Assembly (NCBI GenBank): GCA_016931955.1
Contig: JAFGDV010000042.1
Span: 1 to 8,775, forward strand
DNA: 8,775 nucleotides
DNA from: Candidatus Altarchaeota archaeon
GTDB taxonomy: Archaea; Altiarchaeota; Altiarchaeia; IMC4; QMZM01
Direction of reading: 5' to 3'
Positions 1 through 8,775 of this stretch are shown here, piece after piece (position 1 is the stretch's first letter; every line of letters begins with the position of its first letter). The notes under the pieces were generated by a model. It saw only the letters and a program-made list of their open reading frames with translations. It was not told the origin of the DNA and ran no database searches. The position numbers were made by a program, and so were the translations under genes.

Positions 1-24
1 ACTTTGAAGTCGCAGATGAATGCC

Positions 25-405
25 TCATACTTGCCGACTTTGTAAGTTCATACCACACCCTTTAGGGTGTGGTTGTTGATTTTTTTTCCGTTTTTTTTTG
101 GTGAGTCCACGCTGGTCGGCGGTGAGTATGAGTCCCTGCTTTAGGTGGTGGCGTTCCATGGCTTCGAGCAGTCCCACAGTCTCTCGTTCTCTGCTTTTTT
201 CGTAGTCCGCAGTTACCTGAATTGCAGTCGTGACTTTTCCGCCTGAGCGAACCAAAAAATCGCATTCCTTGTATTCTCTGTGGAAGAATATCTCTCCGCC
301 TGTCTTCTTCAGGGTGAGGTAGACTATGTTCTCGAGGAGTCTTCCGTAGTCTTCCGTTGGCCGGAAGCCTACGATTCTCGCCAGCGCAGGGTCTATGAAA
401 TGCAC
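25..405 (-). pseudogene. Remnant of DUF4143-type archaeal ATPase (C-terminal part only)
   Basis: The 126-residue product matches the C-terminal DUF4143 part of the AAA-type 'archaeal ATPase' family. Recognisable elements are FIDPALARIVGF (3-14), EDYGRLLENIVYL (18-30), ECDFLV (47-52), AIQV (61-64) and GLILTADQ (91-98). Family members are normally around 400 residues with an N-terminal P-loop ATPase and a winged-helix domain; both are missing. The GTG at 405 is only the first start codon in the frame. The frame stays open upstream to about 465, but that stretch is made of the palindromic repeats and does not resemble the family. The natural C-terminus is also lost: after residue 100 (about position 106) the reading becomes lysine-rich and runs through T-tracts and the hairpin. 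Truncation at both ends argues for a dead fragment. The function of the parent family is poorly known. Confidence 0.7.
52..73. repeat. Perfect 9-bp inverted repeat (hairpin), possible IS200/IS605-type end or terminator
   Basis: The sequence is ACCACACCC, loop TTTA, GGGTGTGGT, a perfect 9-bp stem with a 4-nt loop. On the plus strand it is followed by a run of eight T at 80-87 and nine T at 91-99. Two readings fit. It could be the subterminal hairpin of an IS200/IS605-family element, whose ends carry short imperfect or perfect hairpins; the homology of the adjacent ATPase remnant stops just beyond it, as an insertion would cause. Or it could be a hairpin plus T-tract terminator for a plus-strand gene coming from the left. 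No transposase gene is visible in the 51 bases to the left, and no assignable gene lies in positions 1-51, although short frames are open to the edge on both strands. Confidence 0.5.
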
Positions 406-1126: not shown

Positions 1127-2665
1127 TTATTCCCATTCTATTGTTCCTGGTGGTTTGTGTGTTAGGTCGTATACTACTCGGTTCACTTCAGGTATTTCGT
1201 TGGTTATTCTCGTGGATATCCTCTCCAAGACATCATATGGTATCCGGGCGAAGTTGGCGGTCATGCCGTCGACGCTTTCCACTATGCGGAGAGCTATCGT
1301 GTTCCTGTAAGTGCGGGCGTCGCCTTGAACGCCGACGGTCTTAATCGGCAATAGGATGGCGAAAAACTGCCACAGGCCGGGCGCAAGACCGGATTCCCTA
1401 ATCTCTTCCTTCACGATTGAGTCAGCCTCACGTATGATCCTCGCAGACTCAGGCGTAACCTCTCCAATGATCCGGATAGCGAGACCCGGACCCGGAAAAG
1501 GATGTCGGTCAACTATTTCTGGAGGCAGATCCAGTTTTCTGGCAACCACTCGGACTTCGTCTTTATACAAGTCCTCCAATGGCTCTACTATCCTCAAACC
1601 CAGCTTCGCCGGGAGGCCGCCGACGTTGTGGTGACTTTTAATGGTGAAGGCATGCTGCGAGCCGCTCTCGATCCTGTCGGGGTAGATCGTTCCCTGGATG
1701 AGGAATTCAGCGTTTATCTCCCTAGCAACCCCCTCAAAGACCCTGATAAAGGCTTCCCCGATCCTCTTACGTTTCTCCTCCGGGTCTTCAATGCATCTAA
1801 GAGCGGAGAAGAATCTCTCTCTTGCGTCAACCATTCTGAAATCTAGGTCGAATTTGCCCGAGAAGGTCTCCTCTATGAGCGCTGGCTCGTTCTTTCGCAT
1901 GAGGCCAGTATCCACGAATACTGCAGTAAGGTTTTTTCCGATGGCTTTGCCTGCGAGAACCGCTGCAGTGCTGGAATCGATTCCTCCGGAAAGGGCGATT
2001 ATTGCCTTCTTTTTACCTACTTTCTTTTTTATCTTCTCTATTGAAGACTCGATGAAGTCCTCCATGACCCAGTTTCCAGCGCACTTACAGACGTCTCTCA
2101 CAAAATTCTCGAAAATCTTTCTCCCATGTCTGGTATGCACTACTTCAGGATGCCACTGAACGCCGTGGATTTTTTTCTCCCTATGCTGGAATGCCGCGAC
2201 TGGAGTATTGTCGGTGTGCGCCAGTATCTCATAGGTTGATGGCATCTCTTTTACAGTATCAGAGTGACTCATCCATACGTCTTCTTCCTTTGAGAGACCG
2301 GCTAGTATTCCTACTGGTTTATCTATGAAAGCCTTCGTGATCCCATATTCTCCCTGCTCCCCAGCTCTCACTAGACCGCCTTCCATGTATGCTATCAGCT
2401 GGTGGCCGTAGCACAGTCCCAGGATTCCGAGGTCGAGGTCCAGAATCCGTTTATCAAGCTTAAGAGAGTCTTTATCGTAGACGCTCTGCGGACCACCTGA
2501 TATGATCAGTCCTCTGACTTTGTATTTTTTTCCGCACTCTTCTATGTCCTCTGGTGTCGTCTTCGGCGAAACAATCTCAGAATAGACGTTCAGTTCTCGG
2601 ATCCTTCTAGCGATTAGGTGGCAGTATTGGCCTCCGAAGTCCAGCACCAAGATGCAGTCAGTCAT
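1127..2665 (-). CDS. guaA: GMP synthase (glutamine-hydrolysing), fused single chain
   Basis: Makes GMP from XMP, ATP and glutamine, the last step of GMP synthesis. The 512 residues match the usual length of the fused enzyme. Domains: class I glutamine amidotransferase (about 4-192) with oxyanion region ISGGPQSVY (55-63), nucleophile Cys85 in GLCYGHQ, and His172 and Glu174 in WHPE; N-type ATP pyrophosphatase (about 202-395) with PP-loop SGGIDS (226-231) and QGTIYPDRIES (324-334); C-terminal dimerisation domain ending in KPPGTIEWE, with RITNEIPEVNRVVYD just before it. All key residues are present. Its ATG overlaps the carA stop (ATGA, 2662-2665), so translation is probably coupled to carA. Many euryarchaea encode this enzyme as two separate subunits, so the fused form in an apparently archaeal setting is notable and may reflect lineage or transfer. 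Confidence 0.97.
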   Translation of the reverse strand: MTDCILVLDFGGQYCHLIARRIRELNVYSEIVSPKTTPEDIEECGKKYKVRGLIISGGPQSVYDKDSLKLDKRILDLDLGILGLCYGHQLIAYMEGGLVRAGEQGEYGITKAFIDKPVGILAGLSKEEDVWMSHSDTVKEMPSTYEILAHTDNTPVAAFQHREKKIHGVQWHPEVVHTRHGRKIFENFVRDVCKCAGNWVMEDFIESSIEKIKKKVGKKKAIIALSGGIDSSTAAVLAGKAIGKNLTAVFVDTGLMRKNEPALIEETFSGKFDLDFRMVDARERFFSALRCIEDPEEKRKRIGEAFIRVFEGVAREINAEFLIQGTIYPDRIESGSQHAFTIKSHHNVGGLPAKLGLRIVEPLEDLYKDEVRVVARKLDLPPEIVDRHPFPGPGLAIRIIGEVTPESARIIREADSIVKEEIRESGLAPGLWQFFAILLPIKTVGVQGDARTYRNTIALRIVESVDGMTANFARIPYDVLERISTRITNEIPEVNRVVYDLTHKPPGTIEWE

Positions 2666-3747
2666 CCTATCATTTCTATGAATTCATCGAATAAATAATA
2701 GTTATACCATGGTCCAGGATGCGCTTCTGGGTGATACTGTACCGCCTTGATGGGGAGTTCCTTATGTGTGAGACCCTCCACTGAGCCGTCGTTCAGGTTA
2801 GTGTGTGTGACTATTATGTCTTCTGGCATGGATTCGGCGTCGACCGCAAACCCGTGGTTCTGGGATGTTATATGTGCTCTGCCAGTCACTAAGTCCTTCA
2901 CGGGCTGGTTGGCTCCGCGGTGGCCGAACTTCAGTTTATAGGTTCTCGCACCGAAGGCTAAGGCGAGGATCTGCAAGCCGAGACAGATCCCGAACATGGG
3001 AGTTTCTTCAGAGATCAGTTTCTTCACTGTTTCAACCACGTAGTCAGCCCTTTCAGGGTCTCCTGGGCCGTTGGAGACTAATACGGCGCTAGGTTCGTAT
3101 TCAAGGATTCTGTTCGCGGATGTTTTGGCTGGGACTTGGATTACGTTAACGCGCCTATCTAAGAGGCATTGGATGATGCTCTTCTTCACTCCGCAGTCCA
3201 GTAAGGCGATGGTTTTTTTTCCTTTTGCGTTATAGTTTTTGGGTTCTTTTGTTGATACTTGGCTTACGAGGTCGAGTTCTGAGATGTTGGGCAGTTTCTC
3301 GGCTTTTTCTTTGAGTTCTTCTATCTCTTTTTCTTCGTAGGGGTATTTTAGGATGCCATTCAATGTCCCATGGACTCTGATTTTTCTTGTCAGGGCTCGT
3401 GTGTCTATTCCCTCCATACCTGGGATGCTGTAGTCTTTGAGGAATTCGTCCAAGGTCTTCTCTGCCATGTGGTGGCCAATATGCTTTGAAAGCTCTCTGA
3501 TTATGAGGCCCTCCGCTTGTATCCTATCTGATTCAGAGTCTTCGCCGTTGATTCCGTAGTTTCCCATCAATGGATAGGTCATCATCAGGATCTGGCCCTT
3601 ATATGATGGGTCAGTCAGTGCTTCCTGGTAGCCGCCCACGGAGGTGTTGAATACGACCTCCCCCTTGACCTCTGTTTTTGCGCCGAAGCCTTTTCCTTGA
3701 ATAACTGTTCCGTCTTGCAGAACAAGCACAGCGTTTTTTCCATCCAT
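2662..3747 (-). CDS. carA: Carbamoyl-phosphate synthase small (glutaminase) subunit, copy 1
   Basis: Hydrolyses glutamine and passes ammonia to the large subunit CarB, giving carbamoyl phosphate for pyrimidine and arginine synthesis. The 361 residues are full length. The N-terminal CPSase_sm_chain domain (about 4-134) shows GEVVFNTSVGGYQEALTDPSY (29-49). The class I amidotransferase domain (about 178-360) shows NGPGDP (226-231), nucleophile Cys255 in GICLGLQ, KFGHRGANQPV (273-283), NHGFAVD with His298, and YHPEA with His339 and Glu341. The residue after CLG is Leu where bacterial CarA usually has His; the second copy shares this. A GAGGGT about 10 bases before the ATG at 3747 is a possible ribosome site. 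It overlaps guaA downstream by four bases. No carB is in the window. A second carA lies at the right end, with tracts identical at the DNA level. Confidence 0.96.
   Translation of the reverse strand: MDGKNAVLVLQDGTVIQGKGFGAKTEVKGEVVFNTSVGGYQEALTDPSYKGQILMMTYPLMGNYGINGEDSESDRIQAEGLIIRELSKHIGHHMAEKTLDEFLKDYSIPGMEGIDTRALTRKIRVHGTLNGILKYPYEEKEIEELKEKAEKLPNISELDLVSQVSTKEPKNYNAKGKKTIALLDCGVKKSIIQCLLDRRVNVIQVPAKTSANRILEYEPSAVLVSNGPGDPERADYVVETVKKLISEETPMFGICLGLQILALAFGARTYKLKFGHRGANQPVKDLVTGRAHITSQNHGFAVDAESMPEDIIVTHTNLNDGSVEGLTHKELPIKAVQYHPEAHPGPWYNYYLFDEFIEMIG
3275..3345. repeat. 71-bp tract identical to 8705-8775 (in carA copy 1)
   Basis: This tract encodes the linker around residues 135-158 of copy 1 and is base-for-base identical to the last 71 bases of the window in copy 2, so the identity may extend beyond the window. 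Other perfect tracts at the same 5430-base offset are 3200-3230 / 8630-8660 (31 bp) and 2893-2937 / 8323-8367 (45 bp). Sequence between the tracts is clearly diverged. Confidence 0.9.
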
Positions 3748-3772
3748 TCCATAATACCCTCAGAACTCCGAC

Positions 3773-3802
3773 ATAAATACGGCAGGTTTGTTTTTTAAAC
3801 CC
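3773..3802 (-). promoter_or_regulatory. Candidate promoter region for carA-guaA
   Basis: Reading the minus strand, two TATA-like boxes precede carA: TTTAAAAAAC (about 3802-3793) and TATTTATG (about 3780-3773). The first leaves room for a short leader containing the GAGGGT at 3763-3758; the second would start transcription close to the ATG. The 107-bp gap between the upstream membrane-protein gene and carA leaves room for an independent promoter, but co-transcription is also possible. Confidence 0.3.
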
Positions 3803-3828
3803 AATCAGAAGATTTATTTCAATAAAGA

Positions 3829-3845
3829 AACCGATTTTAGCGGTT
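3829..3845 (-). terminator. Weak hairpin followed by T-rich stretch after the DUF6498-like gene
   Basis: On the minus strand, AACCG, a 7-nt loop and CGGTT form a 5-bp stem starting about 10 bases past the stop of the membrane-protein gene, followed by TCTTTATT. The stem is short, so this is a tentative terminator. An overlapping A/T inverted repeat (TTTATT-TC-AATAAA, 3813-3826) adds to the low-complexity character here. Confidence 0.22.
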
Positions 3846-3854
3846 GAAAGGTAT

Positions 3855-4568
3855 TCAGGTTATTGTTTTTTTCTTCATTAGTTTGAGGATTTTTTCAGGG
3901 TCTGTGTGCTCTATGTCGTGCATTATGACATCAGCAACAGTCTTCAGTAGCATGAAGAAGACTAGTAAGGCGGCAGAGCCTGTATCCGGTAAACCCAGGG
4001 TGGATGAGATTATGCCAAAGAATACGAGAACCCACACACCGAAGATGATGGTGAAATGCATTGGTATTATCCTCGCGTAAGGCATGATCATTATCACGCC
4101 GATGTATTGTTTTCTCTTCATGTCCTCTCGCAGGTTATAGGCGAGAGAGAAAAGGTGGTTGAAGAAGAAAAGACCGACGGCGAACAGGAAAGGGAAAAAA
4201 TCTTCTCCGTTACCGGATCCTAGAAAACCCGATCCTGTGAGGAGAAAAGCAGCGTATACCACATGAAAGAATCCGTAGTGGAATGCAAAAAAGATTGCAA
4301 ACATGATTTTCGTGCCGACGGTGGGTTTAACCTCTTTATCGTTTATCTTTACCCCCTCAGTGGAGAAATCCCGCAGCGAAAGAATGCGTATGAAGTTGGA
4401 AAAACCGATTATGATGTTTTGAAACCAGTACACCCAGAGCACTGAGAGCAGGCTCCAGCCTTCCAGGAATGCAATAACAGCAGTCAGCAGATTAGACCCT
4501 ATCAGAGCCCAGGCGGTCGGATCCACTCTTACACGCCTGACAATATCTGATTTAAGGCCGGCCATCAT
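3855..4568 (-). CDS. Multi-pass membrane protein, DUF6498-like
   Basis: A 237-residue hydrophobic protein with about six predicted membrane segments (near residues 20-34, 40-62, 86-110, 124-144, 168-190 and 197-215) separated by short charged loops, and a Lys-rich cytoplasmic-type tail. Conserved-looking features are the aromatic YWFQNIIIGF (47-56), the paired His residues in FHYGFFHVVY (96-105), PYARIIPMHFTI (163-174), and the final KTVADVIMHDIEH (209-221). This pattern fits the DUF6498 family, whose function is unknown; I recognise it from pattern only. The several intramembrane His residues could bind metal or carry protons, which is speculation. The start could be 4568 or the adjacent ATG at 4565. 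It is divergent from the Dph6 gene with 41 bases between starts and lies 107 bp upstream of carA on the same strand. Confidence 0.75.
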   Translation of the reverse strand: MMAGLKSDIVRRVRVDPTAWALIGSNLLTAVIAFLEGWSLLSVLWVYWFQNIIIGFSNFIRILSLRDFSTEGVKINDKEVKPTVGTKIMFAIFFAFHYGFFHVVYAAFLLTGSGFLGSGNGEDFFPFLFAVGLFFFNHLFSLAYNLREDMKRKQYIGVIMIMPYARIIPMHFTIIFGVWVLVFFGIISSTLGLPDTGSAALLVFFMLLKTVADVIMHDIEHTDPEKILKLMKKKTIT

Positions 4569-4577
4569 AATAAACTT

Positions 4578-4597
4578 GGAAATGCATATATATTACC
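4578..4597. promoter_or_regulatory. Shared divergent TATA-like box
   Basis: The palindromic ATATATAT (4586-4593) lies midway in the 41-bp gap between two divergent genes, about 20 bases from each start codon. GGAAA just to its left is BRE-like for the plus strand. With so little room both transcripts would be essentially leaderless, and one box may serve both directions. The spacing is a few bases shorter than the usual archaeal TATA-to-start distance, so another box or a start further inside one of the genes cannot be excluded. Confidence 0.4.
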
Positions 4598-4609
4598 TTA
4601 GTGAATTAA

Positions 4610-5278
4610 ATGAAACTAGCGGCGTTGACGTCTGGTGGGAAGGATTCCCTCTACGCAGTGTACTTGGAAAAGAGCGAAGGCCATGATATACGCTATCTGC
4701 TATCGATGAAGCCTCTCAGCGATGAAAGCTACATGTTCCACCACCCCAACATCGAACTAACTGGATTACAGTCCGCGCTAATGAACATACCTCTTCGGTT
4801 CAAGGTAACTCCGGGAGAGAAAGAAAAAGAACTCATAGACTTGGAGAAATTGTTCTTGGAGATCAAACACAAAGTCGATGGGATCATAACAGGAGCTATC
4901 GCCTCAAACTACCAGAAGGAGAGGATAGAGCGGATCTGCTCGAAGCTCGGCTTGGAGTGTGTTTCCCCGCTCTGGCATATTGATTCGGAAAAGTACTGGA
5001 GCGATCTACTTGATGCGGGATTCGAGGTCATAGTCTCAGGGGTCTCGGCGCAGGGCCTGGGTGAGGAGTGGTTGGGAAGGATAATAGACGAAAAAGCCCT
5101 GGATGAGCTGAAGCGGATAAGGGATAAACATGGAATACACATGGCCTTTGAGGGCGGGGAAGCGGAGACATTCGTCCTAAATTGTTCAATGTTTTCGAAG
5201 GGAATCAAGGTCTTAGAAGCAGAAAAAAACTGGGACGGACAGAGGGGAACATACAATATAAAGAAGGTGACACTATAG
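4610..5278 (+). CDS. dph6: Diphthine-ammonia ligase-type ATP pyrophosphatase (DUF71/Dph6 family)
   Basis: This family performs the last step of diphthamide synthesis on elongation factor 2, amidating diphthine with ATP and free ammonium. The 222 residues match the archaeal MJ0570-like form, shorter than the eukaryotic protein with its extra C-terminal domains. Key motifs: PP-loop SGGKDS (8-13), GAIASNYQKERIE (95-107), PLWHID (120-125), SGVSAQGLGEEWLGR (143-157) and EGGEAETFVLNCSMF (181-195). No glutaminase domain is present, in line with direct use of ammonia. Its ATG follows a TATA-like box by about 20 bases with no clear ribosome site, so leaderless translation is likely. Its last six bases, CTATAG, are shared with the end of the convergent asparagine-synthase-like gene. 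Some DUF71 members have other or unknown substrates, so the exact role is inferred from family. Confidence 0.88.
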   Translation: MKLAALTSGGKDSLYAVYLEKSEGHDIRYLLSMKPLSDESYMFHHPNIELTGLQSALMNIPLRFKVTPGEKEKELIDLEKLFLEIKHKVDGIITGAIASNYQKERIERICSKLGLECVSPLWHIDSEKYWSDLLDAGFEVIVSGVSAQGLGEEWLGRIIDEKALDELKRIRDKHGIHMAFEGGEAETFVLNCSMFSKGIKVLEAEKNWDGQRGTYNIKKVTL

Positions 5279-6127
5279 TTCTTCCAGATACATCCTAACG
5301 TAGTCTGTTCTATCAACTTCGGATGCCTTCTTCTTGTAGTTTTTCTTTCTGGCGATTTTCTCCAACATCTTTTGTGTGCCGGAGCCGTACTGCGCAGCCT
5401 TCTTCTTCCTGTGGAGCACCGAGTCCGGTACCCCTACTTCCTTACCCAGAAGTCGCAGGATGTATTTGCGCACATATTTTTCTTCCCCGACTTTATCCAC
5501 ACACATATATTCCTCACAGTTCCTTATCCTGTCCTCCATGGGCAGAGAAAGGACGTAGTCTATAAAAGAGGGATCCATGTATGGAGCCCGAAGCTCTATT
5601 CTATTCGCTTTGCAGACAGCCATGTCTTTACTCAGCTGAGACTCGTACATACGCTCTATGTCGGATCGCATCATGTCCTCGACTTTCTCGTAGCCTTCTT
5701 TCAAGGATTCGATGTACCTCGCATAACCCCCAAAGAGTTCATCAGCGCCCTGCCCGCAGAGCATCACCTTAAGACCGTCTTCACTCGCATGCTTTGAGGC
5801 GAAATAGAAGGGGACCTCAACGGAAACCTTCACAGGATTACGATCACTAATCGCTGAGATAATAGCTCTTAGAGAATCCTCCACCATGTCTTCTTCAAGC
5901 ATCACGTATCGCACATCAAAGCCGAGTCCTTCACATTTTTTAGCATACTCCAGATCAGATGCGCCCTCTAAGCCGCAGGCGTAAGCAGTAACCTCTGAGA
6001 ACCTGGATGATAGAATCGCGATGATGAGGGAATCAATGCCTCCGGAAAAAACAATCCCAACCTTTGATTCACAGCTCCTCTCAACGGCTGCGGAAAGAAG
6101 CCGCTTGAGTTCATCTACTTTACTCAT
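5273..6127 (-). CDS. Stand-alone asparagine synthase C-terminal (ATP pyrophosphatase) domain protein
   Basis: The 284 residues match only the synthetase half of AsnB-type asparagine synthases: PP-loop SGGIDS (28-33), [11 protein letters not shown] (125-135), the [10 protein letters not shown] segment (176-185), and a Lys-rich [11 protein letters not shown] (240-250). The N-terminal Ntn-type glutaminase domain, about 200 residues beginning with catalytic Cys2, is absent. This is not a truncation artefact, because the ATG at 6127 overlaps the hisF stop (ATGA) and upstream sequence is HisF. Similar short forms occur in archaea. It may use free ammonia, or receive it from a separate amidotransferase; the substrate could be aspartate or another carboxylate. 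It is the last gene of the overlapping carA2-pdxT-hisH-hisF run and ends on the shared CTATAG with the Dph6 gene. Confidence 0.88.
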
Positions 6128-6942
6128 TTCTGTAATCTGACGTGGACTCCGTTTTTGTCTAAATATTTTTTGACTTCTTGAATCGAGTATTCTCCGTAGT
6201 GGAAGATGCTCGCAGCCAAGGCAGCCTGCGCTTTAGTCTTCTTGAAGACCTCCAGCATGTGCTCCGGGCTGCCGCAGCCCCCGGAGGCGATGACTGGTAT
6301 CCTAACTGTTTCGGCCACGGCCTTCGTCAGCTCGATGTCGAAGCCGTCATAGGTGCCGTCCCTATCCATGGAAGTCAGAAGAATCTCTCCAGCGCCTCGT
6401 TCCTCGACCTCGAGGGCCCACTTCAAGGCGTCGATTCCAGTGAATTCCTTGCCGCCGTACATGGAGCACTCAAACCAGCACTCGCCTTCTTCAGTATTCA
6501 CAACCTCCCTGCCTTCGAGGTTGTCGTATCTTCTCTTAGCGTCTATTGCAACAACGCAGGCCTGGCTTCCGTAAGCCCCGGTTATTTCATTAACCAGGGA
6601 GGGGTTCTTTATGGCGGCAGTGTTTACGCCGACCTTGTCCGCCCCAGAGTTAAACACTGCTCGGGCGGCTTCTACGCTATTTATGCCGCCTCCCACTGTT
6701 AGAGGGATGAAGACCTTCTCAGCTACCTTCTTTATGACGTTCGTCATCGTGTCTCGTCTCTCATTTGAGGCGGTTATGTCCAAGAAGACAAGCTCGTCAG
6801 CCCCATCCTTGGAGTATCTCTCAGCAAGCTCCCATGGAATCCCAGCATAACGTATCTTTTTAAACTCGACGCCTTTCACGACCCGGCCCTCTGGGACAGC
6901 AAGGTCGCAGTCCAGACAAGGAATAATCCTCCTAGCTAACAT
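6124..6942 (-). CDS. hisF: Imidazole glycerol phosphate synthase cyclase subunit
   Basis: Uses ammonia channelled from HisH to convert PRFAR into imidazole glycerol phosphate and AICAR, the fifth step of histidine synthesis. The 272 residues form a complete (beta/alpha)8 barrel. Visible motifs: RIIPCLDCD with catalytic Asp11, GRVVKGVEF (19-27), FLDITAS (53-59), TVGGGI (82-87), [11 protein letters not shown] with catalytic Asp134, [15 protein letters not shown] (183-197), IASGG (218-222) and [13 protein letters not shown] (240-252). The loop after Asp11 (CDLAVPEGR) is longer than the bacterial VKDGR form and matches archaeal HisF. Its ATG lies inside the end of hisH (7-bp overlap), preceded by GTGAGGG as a possible ribosome site, so the two partners are probably translated together. 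Confidence 0.97.
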
Positions 6943-7535
6943 CTCACATCCCTCACGAAATTATTTAGGATTAAAAGACCTTTATCCCCTGATTTTTCTG
7001 GGTGGAATTGAACCCCAGAGATGTTGTCTCTGACTACGACGGAGGCGAACTCAACTCCATGGTCAGTGGTCGCAGCGACCACTTTCTTGTCTACTGGAAC
7101 ACAGTAGTAGGAGTGCACGAAATAGAAGAAGTCGCCGTCACTTACTCCCTCAAGCAGGCGGCAGTCCATCCTTAATCTGACTTCATTCCAGCCGATCTGC
7201 GGTACAGAAACGTCTTCTGGAAGCCTTATGACCTCCCCCCTGATCGCCCCGAAGCCTCTGCCCGCCCCTTCCTCACTGCTCTCGAATAGGGCTTGCATGC
7301 CCATGCAGATGCCAAGAAAAGGCCTGCCTTCTCCAAGAAGTTTGAGGATTTTTCCTCGGAATGGTTCTAAATTGCTCATGGTCCTCTCAAAGGAGCCCAC
7401 TCCGGGGATTACTAGTGCATCAGGATTATCCAAGTCTTCAACCTTCCTAACAACCTGAACCTCTGCACCCGCCTTCTCTAAGGCATTCCTTATGCTGAAT
7501 ATATTGCCCATGCCGTAGTCTATTACTGTGATCAT
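6936..7535 (-). CDS. hisH: Imidazole glycerol phosphate synthase glutaminase subunit
   Basis: Class I glutamine amidotransferase that feeds ammonia to HisF. The 199 residues are of normal length and start directly with [16 protein letters not shown] (44-49) forms the oxyanion strand, nucleophile Cys77 lies in [15 protein letters not shown] is at 115-120, FVHSYY at 139-144, and His178 and Glu180 lie in QFHPEKSG. All catalytic residues are intact. The start is supported by the ATGA overlap with pdxT (7532-7535), and the end overlaps hisF by seven bases. No other histidine gene is present in the window, so this pair sits apart from the rest of its pathway at least locally. Confidence 0.97.
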
Positions 7536-8092
7536 TTTCTCAGGGATAGGAAGTATCTAATCAATCGTGTGTCGGAAGTCAATTCAGGGTGGAAGGCTAC
7601 AGCGAGAAGATTACCCTGTTGAGCCATGATTACTCTGTTGTCGTATTCGGCCAGGACCTCAACCCCTTTACCTGTTTTCTCTATCACAGGCGCTCTTATG
7701 AAGACCGCATGATAGGGTTCTTTCCCTAATCTTAGGATTTTCAGGTCGACTTCAAAGCTTTCTCGCTGCCTGCCGAAGGCGTTTCTACTCACAGCGATAT
7801 CCATCAACCCCAGATTACTGAGCAAGATAAGGCCGGCACAGGTGCCCATGATAGGCACCTTTTTTTTCGCAAGATTTTTTATCTCCCTATCTACTCCATA
7901 CTCTTTCAGCAGTTTCAATATTGTAGTGCTCTCTCCGCCGGGGATTATCAACGCATCCAGTTCTCTGACTTCGTCAGGGTTTTTGACTGCATAGACATCT
8001 CCTCTAATGCTTAAATCCTTCATCGCCTGCCTTGTGTGGTGGACATGTTCAGAAACATCCCCTTGCAGGCTGAGAATTCCGATCTTGATCAT
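7532..8092 (-). CDS. pdxT: Pyridoxal 5'-phosphate synthase glutaminase subunit
   Basis: Releases ammonia from glutamine for PdxS, which builds pyridoxal 5'-phosphate from ribose 5-phosphate and glyceraldehyde 3-phosphate. The 186 residues are the usual length. Family motifs: GILSLQGD (5-12), PGGEST (51-56), nucleophile Cys85 in MGTCAG, RNAFGRQ (103-109), FIRAP (131-135), and His168 and Glu170 in AFHPEL. Its partner gene pdxS, often adjacent in bacteria and some archaea, is not in the window. It overlaps the second carA upstream (ATGA, 8089-8092) and hisH downstream (ATGA), so it is embedded in a run of amidotransferase genes rather than with its own pathway. Confidence 0.97.
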   Translation of the reverse strand: MIKIGILSLQGDVSEHVHHTRQAMKDLSIRGDVYAVKNPDEVRELDALIIPGGESTTILKLLKEYGVDREIKNLAKKKVPIMGTCAGLILLSNLGLMDIAVSRNAFGRQRESFEVDLKILRLGKEPYHAVFIRAPVIEKTGKGVEVLAEYDNRVIMAQQGNLLAVAFHPELTSDTRLIRYFLSLRK

Positions 8093-8775
8093 TTCATCAT
8101 CTTCAAGAATTCATCGAACAGGTACAGGTTATACCTTGGTCCGGGGTTGGCTTCTGGGTGATACTGTACAGCGGTTATGGGATGCTCTCTATGCCTTATC
8201 CCCTCAACGCTCCCATCGTTTAGGTTTATGTGAGTGATCTCAAGGTTTGTGTGCTTTGTGGATTCAGGGTCGACTGCAAAACCGTGATTCTGTGAAGTAA
8301 TATGTATCCTCTCGGTTTTTAGGTCCTTCACGGGCTGGTTGGCTCCGCGGTGGCCGAACTTCAGTTTGTAGGTTTTGGCCCCCTCAGCTAACGCGATGAT
8401 CTGTAAGCCGATGCAGATCCCGAACATGGGAACACCTTCCTTGATTAATCCCTTGATCGTTTTTATCACGTAGTCTGCCTTAGTAGGATCCCCCGGACCA
8501 TTAGAAACAACGACGCCGTCTGCTTCGTAGTTTAGGATCTCATTCAAAGAACTCCTCGCAGGTACCCTGATGACGTTAACGCCCCTCTCCATTAATGCGC
8601 GAATTATGCTTTCTTTGGCGCCGCAGTCTAGTAAGGCGATGGTTTTTTTTCCTTTTGCGTCATAGCTTTTAGGTTCTCTTGTGGATACGCTGTTTATAAG
8701 ATCAAGTTCTGAGATGTTGGGCAGTTTCTCGGCTTTTTCTTTGAGTTCTTCTATCTCTTTTTCTTCGTAGGGGTA
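8089..8775 (-). CDS. carA: Carbamoyl-phosphate synthase small subunit, copy 2 (5' end beyond window)
   Basis: The visible 228 residues correspond to residue 135 to the end of copy 1; the N-terminus lies outside the window, and the frame is open to the last base. The Met at 8592 is internal, because the reading upstream (YPYEEKEIEELKEKAEK, later KTIALLDCG) is clearly CarA. Catalytic features are intact: NGPGDP, Cys in FGICIGLQ, KFGHRGANQPV, NHGFAVD, YHPEA. Thus it is probably functional, not a pseudogene. Copies 1 and 2 align with a constant offset of 5430 bases over most of the shared region, with one extra codon in copy 2 near its C-terminus (after FAVDPES). Identity is concentrated in blocks that are identical even at synonymous sites. 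Its stop overlaps the pdxT start by ATGA. Whether it pairs with CarB or another synthetase is unknown. Confidence 0.93.
   Translation of the reverse strand, partial: YPYEEKEIEELKEKAEKLPNISELDLINSVSTREPKSYDAKGKKTIALLDCGAKESIIRALMERGVNVIRVPARSSLNEILNYEADGVVVSNGPGDPTKADYVIKTIKGLIKEGVPMFGICIGLQIIALAEGAKTYKLKFGHRGANQPVKDLKTERIHITSQNHGFAVDPESTKHTNLEITHINLNDGSVEGIRHREHPITAVQYHPEANPGPRYNLYLFDEFLKMMK
8705..8775. repeat. 71-bp tract identical to 3275-3345 (in carA copy 2)
   Basis: This is the partner of the copy-1 tract, in the same orientation (both genes on the minus strand). It makes a direct repeat about 5.4 kb apart that brackets guaA's upstream neighbour region, dph6, the his pair and pdxT. Recombination between the copies would delete everything between them. 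Confidence 0.9.

Follow-up and report, generated by a model that had tools for sequence, protein, structure and literature searches.

Glutaminase genes on an archaeal contig

The stretch of DNA analysed here, in the following called the window, is an entire contig of 8,775 bp (C16; JAFGDV010000042.1) from a Candidatus Altarchaeota archaeon, whose genome bin of 1.55 Mb is distributed over 46 contigs and is 92% complete. Glutaminase genes of four pathways (pyrimidine/arginine, vitamin B6, histidine and GMP) are found in the window in overlapping strings, and their synthase partners are located elsewhere. Two compact strings can be distinguished, carA2-pdxT-hisH-hisF-asnB-like, in which neighbours overlap by 4 to 7 bases at each junction, and carA1-guaA, which overlap by 4 bases. 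The overlaps between reading frames suggest two transcription units with coupled translation.

Both strings lie on the minus strand. The longer one starts with carA2 (8089-8775), encoding the glutaminase (small) subunit of carbamoyl-phosphate synthetase, truncated at the contig end and matching positions 132-360 of the TIGR01368 model. It is followed by pdxT (7532-8092), the glutaminase of pyridoxal phosphate synthase (TIGR03800, 203 bits, cut-off 106), which overlaps both carA2 and hisH by 4 bases, and by hisH (6936-7535) and hisF (6124-6942), encoding the glutaminase (TIGR01855, 221 bits, cut-off 105) and the ammonia-accepting subunit (TIGR00735, 377 bits, cut-off 295) of imidazole glycerol phosphate synthase. 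The last gene is asnB-like (5273-6127), a PP-loop ligase of the PF00733 family devoid of a glutaminase domain. In the shorter string a second carbamoyl-phosphate synthetase glutaminase subunit is encoded by carA1 (2662-3747; TIGR01368, 486 bits, cut-off 307), and GMP synthase, with both glutaminase and synthetase domains, by guaA (1127-2665; NF000848, 715 bits, precisely 714.7, cut-off 400). Curated family models assign GuaA, CarA, PdxT and HisH to the class I glutamine amidotransferases, and the catalytic cysteine and the HPE (His-Pro-Glu) motif of the triad are conserved in all five glutaminases of the window. The part of CarA2 encoded in the window scores 296 bits against a cut-off of 307 on TIGR01368, and 271 against 221 on NF009475. 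The closest CarA proteins in named genomes, from Archaeoglobi and Methanopyri, are 52-58% identical. A role of hisH-hisF in sugar amidation of the HisF2/WbpG type was considered and rejected, HisF being above the cut-off of TIGR00735 and below those of the WbuZ and AglZ/HisF2 models.

The initial annotation had described a single island made of five class I glutaminases, HisF, AsnB-like, Dph6 and a DUF6498 protein. Family models and coordinates agree on all these genes and on their approximate location. The idea of an island holds for the clustering, which is more than chance, and fails for its unity, as the genes form two strings, dph6 is on the opposite strand, the gene for the DUF6498 membrane protein (3855-4568, minus strand; PF20108, E 1.5e-45) is separate from both strings, and carA2 is cut by the contig end. 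A census of the genome with PF00117 revealed seven class I glutaminase domains. Five of these are encoded by C16, and the remaining two belong to TrpG and PyrG. When gene positions were drawn at random and carA was counted once, only 7 of 2,000,000 placements brought four of six glutaminase genes together within 6.6 kb; with carA counted twice, clusters of five of seven were never obtained in as many placements. The absence from the window of carB, pdxS and other his genes, already remarked in the initial annotation, was confirmed by finding them on other contigs: carB is split over C26 and C27, so that the classical carAB adjacency is missing, pdxS is on C12, hisD on C7 and a hisA-like gene on C2. 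The his genes found elsewhere in the genome are scattered singles too. The glmS gene is on C46, and a separate nitrogen cluster, including gltB genes, glnK, Lrp, amt, a further glnK and glnA, is found on C43.

Contig C13 terminates in the missing part of carA2 (residues 1-133), and when C13 is linked through one additional base to C16 in reverse complement, an intact CarA2 of 362 residues is restored. CarA1 and CarA2 are 76% identical as proteins, yet their genes share an exact tract of 131 bases in a background of 77% identity. The end of C16 falls precisely within this tract, which explains the contig break. The presence of an identical tract in a divergent background suggests gene conversion between the two copies, which are sisters in the CarA tree (support 0.999) and coexist with the single split carB detected in the genome. 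On C13, carA2 starts 20 bases after the tRNA methyltransferase gene trm56, and the two may therefore share a promoter. The same order, trm56-carA-pdxT-hisH-hisF, is found in a relative (G009) and agrees with the join. Genes upstream of trm56 were read by eye as mostly involved in translation or RNA processing and as no operon for amino acids or nucleotides; among them, some 9 kb upstream of carA2, is a gene resembling gatE of the tRNA amidotransferase. Inspection of the flanks covered the C13 side, sequences beyond base 1 of the window being missing. On this flank the cluster is not abutted by his, pyr or pdx operons of the ordinary kind, and no glutamine user was recognised beside carA2.

Gene order in the family and in other archaea

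The region was compared in the source genome (G000) and in 12 other genomes of the same family (G001-G012), the identities of nitrogen gene families in the relatives being checked on examples. In the relatives these genes are combined in various orders with each other, and also with glmS, amt, glnK, glnA and glutamate synthase genes. The longer string is found unchanged as carA-pdxT-hisH-hisF-asnB-like in G001, in which guaA is a few kilobases from gltB on a different contig. In G002 the order is carA-pdxT-hisH-hisF-guaA, spread across two contigs meeting inside hisF, and the contig carrying guaA also holds Lrp-like, HdrB-like and gltB genes, asnB-like, dph6, Lrp and amt-glnK-glnA. Shorter or modified arrays are glmS-carA-hisH-hisF-guaA in G004, carA-hisH-hisF-guaA in G010, carA-hisH-hisF in G007 and carA-guaA in G006. 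The carA gene follows amt-glnK-glnA in G005 and G012 and glnA in G011; glnA adjoins asnB-like in G008. Nothing comparable was found in G003, save for a Lrp gene next to asnB-like. In the 12 family members whose carB first half was listed, carB is on a contig other than that of carA; carA was therefore free of carB before the cluster formed, or as it did.

At least 8 of the 13 family members have two of the four glutaminase genes carA, hisH, pdxT and guaA no more than 10 kb apart, and 9 do if G005 is included (9.5 kb from carA to guaA). No such pair was found when the listed gene positions were compared in 25 archaea outside the family. The difference is significant for 8 members (Fisher p 2.6e-5), the test being a guide only, as it ignores relatedness and contig breaks. 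Several relatives thus link these genes in differing orders and outgroups do not, the picture of a conserved neighbourhood with shuffled order. In named genomes carB is the usual neighbour of carA, and no gene among guaA, hisH, pdxT and glnA was seen to flank these carA loci. Nothing matching carA/hisH/guaA clusters, or nitrogen clusters including glutaminases, was met in the open-access literature.

The clustered copies of HisF (G000, G001, G004, G007, G009 and G010) form one group in the HisF tree with proteins from two archaea outside the class. HisF of the remaining family members is separate from these, and a single family clade is rejected (AU p 8e-20); the clustered hisF is foreign to the family. 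In G041, which hosts the nearest of the HisF from outside the class, hisH-hisF lies against glnA. The native hisF gene follows ilvC in G003, and seems to do so, by eye, in G005 and G006. The tree and the location of native hisF behind ilvC make it most likely that a foreign hisH-hisF pair was recruited beside carA, displacing native hisF. A divergent HisF and HisH pair, encoded in G011 (L049 2624-5377) beside a gene resembling a WbpG-type sugar amidation enzyme, is a system separate from the clustered hisH-hisF.

Additional elements related to glutamine were identified in the family. A protein of about 530 amino acids, which weakly matches the glutamate synthase domain, is found repeatedly next to glnA, guaA-type synthetase genes or Lrp-like genes (L164 6128-7720, L166 3146-4747, L167 2769-4370, L037 2340-3944). 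In three genomes the gene for this glutamate-synthase-like protein is adjoined by one for a second, stand-alone synthetase domain of GMP synthase, of about 315 amino acids (L166 2202-3149, L167 4373-5311, L177 4617-5555).

The asnB-like and dph6 genes and the window end

The diphthine-ammonia ligase gene dph6 (4610-5278, plus strand; TIGR03679, 270 bits, cut-off 197) overlaps asnB-like by 6 bases at its 3' end. According to the initial annotation, only the DUF6498 gene did not fit a glutamine theme. This gene is indeed outside the theme, but the assignment of dph6 and asnB-like is doubtful, as they are linked to each other and to dph2-like genes. The AsnB-like protein consists of the PP-loop domain only, its nearest solved relative is Escherichia coli asparagine synthetase B, and its score of 141 bits is below the cut-off of 267 set for the glutamine-hydrolysing asparagine synthase. 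Since both AsnB-like and Dph6 lack a glutaminase domain, glutamine use is established for neither, and across the family asnB-like has no constant tie to glutaminase genes. The gene is tail to tail with dph6 in the source genome and in G002 and in tandem with dph6 on a Woesearchaeota contig; in G004, G005, G010 and G011 it has infB and a short dph2-like gene as neighbours. Associations of asnB-like with diphthamide genes are thus found at 5273-6127 and 4610-5278 in the window, and in L043 6426-7298, L136 14992-16404 and L036 4087-5210. The short dph2-like frames (L036 4087-4350, L034 6510-6773, L030 10112-10408, L031 8592-8915) encode 87-107 amino acids and resemble only the N-terminal part of Dph2; two were checked against Pfam. 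A fusion of AsnB with DUF71 (Dph6) has been described in methanogens, in Methanohalophilus mahii and others (PMC3541065). The fusion similarly ties an AsnB-type PP-loop domain to Dph6, and differs from the arrangement in the window, where two convergent genes are found and AsnB-like is without a glutaminase domain. On the ground of these associations and of the methanogen fusion the pair is taken as diphthamide-linked, not as proof of a glutamine theme. Dph6 and AsnB-like are probably a separate association placed in the neighbourhood, in which the AsnB-like protein is a candidate partner in diphthamide synthesis, apart from the glutaminase cluster.

The opposite end of the window (1-405) encodes a fragment of 126 amino acids of a DUF4143 protein, weakly matching the end of the family. 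It is adjoined at about 52-73 by a hairpin, ACCACACCC-TTTA-GGGTGTGGT, and the two look like a decayed gene or the remnant of a mobile element. A protein of 171 amino acids with an apparent helix-turn-helix at its start is encoded at 607-1122; it has a weak match to MUG113, just under the cut-off, and no match in NCBIfam. The only hit of the window in a search of Rfam was below threshold, and was taken as fortuitous.

Why glutaminase genes stay together

We consider it fairly likely that the region is a neighbourhood specific to the family, in which users and suppliers of glutamine are co-expressed with nitrogen supply. That glutamine use and nitrogen supply are the theme of the clustering is supported by the variety of orders in the family, by the adjacency to amt-glnK-glnA, glutamate synthase and glmS genes, by the location of partner genes elsewhere, and by the lack of similar arrays in all 25 controls. 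The neighbourhood was probably kept for co-expression, the best-supported reason for users staying together near glutamine suppliers. Co-expression would allow glutamine consumption to be adjusted to the available glutamine, under the control of a putative nitrogen-responsive promoter or regulator, each glutaminase probably still working with its own usual partner. The recruitment of a foreign hisH-hisF pair and the differing junctions argue for repeated recruitment. Control by nitrogen status, as initially suggested, is a possible mechanism. Several observations weigh against the co-expression hypothesis. An NrpR-type operator (GGAAN6TTCC), the sole motif tried, is absent from the window, the C13 end and C43. 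Lrp2 and the HdrB-like and glutamate-synthase-like proteins of relatives were not found in the source genome (92% complete), which encodes a distant HdrB relative, 35% identical, on C5. Moreover, carA2 may share its promoter with trm56, trpG and pyrG remain outside the cluster, and no linkage of these glutaminase genes to each other was found in G003, G008, G011 and G012. Finally, the form of the cluster that includes hisF may have a single origin, in which case the genomes sharing it are not independent.

The genes may also have been assembled by chance and kept by descent with no shared function, carA having been freed from carB, the foreign hisH-hisF having landed behind it and guaA being already there. 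We regard this as distinctly less likely than co-expression, and as the most serious of the alternatives. The single group formed by clustered HisF fits one insertion, the other his genes of the source genome are scattered singles as well, and carA2 is close behind trm56. Yet several separate junctions arose (carA-guaA, glmS-carA, glnA-carA, guaA near gltB), tight overlaps are found in several of them, and none of the 25 control archaea has two of the glutaminase genes closer to each other than 10 kb.

The remaining explanations are much less probable. It is improbable that the genes make up a physically organised glutamine-spending unit, the coupled frames serving to have the glutaminases, including two CarA with one CarB, assembled or dosed together, possibly with exchange of glutaminases or ammonia. 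A shared complex, in which the clustered glutaminases are assembled and feed each other's synthases and two CarA serve one CarB, is slightly more improbable still. The overlapping frames, suggestive of translational coupling, and the two carA set against a single split carB may be quoted in its favour. These glutaminases, however, are activated by their own synthases, to which they channel ammonia; each protein is canonical, above the cut-off of its own family, and has its own partner in the genome. The data do not need a shared complex, and nothing pointed to the ammonia exchange considered in the initial annotation. As improbable is a mis-joined order due to the tract shared by the two carA, in which the contig end exactly falls: trm56-carA-pdxT-hisH-hisF in G009 and carA-guaA in G006 independently reproduce both sides of the join, and joining the ends the other way would leave behind a circle of about 5 kb. 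A local duplication affecting a single glutaminase gene accounts at best for CarA1 and CarA2, which are recent sisters. It is refuted for the others, as only CarA is duplicated and GuaA, HisH and PdxT score high each in its own family, and as an origin of the whole set its probability is negligible.

A neighbourhood kept for co-expression with nitrogen supply has features in common with known systems. The pairing of GlnK with AmtB is known in archaea (PMC3831643). As in amtB-glnK-glnA clusters, the cluster of the family adjoins genes for amt, glnK, glnA and glutamate synthase or is found in their vicinity; the known clusters serve uptake, sensing and assimilation, whereas here glutamine-using enzymes of several pathways are added. 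The carA genes are canonical as in carAB operons, but apart from the split carB, while named archaeal loci mostly have carB beside carA. Similarly, the hisH-hisF pair is retained and pdxT is canonical, but hisA, hisD and pdxS, unlike in his and pdxST operons, are on other contigs. Operons usually follow pathways or complexes, and known uber-operons, which resemble the region in having one set of genes in orders varying among relatives, are sets of genes for a pathway or a machinery. In the region it is glutamine, a substrate, that the genes have in common, and the conserved functional neighbourhood is organised around this compound. The asnB-like and dph6 genes point in addition to a putative partner in diphthamide synthesis, and the glutaminase cluster provides a concrete set of genes for probing nitrogen control in uncultured archaea. 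If the interpretation is true, the nitrogen economy of the whole cell can drive gene order, foreign and native genes being repeatedly drawn beside those for ammonium uptake and glutamine synthesis, which suggests a cell managing its glutamine spending as one unit.

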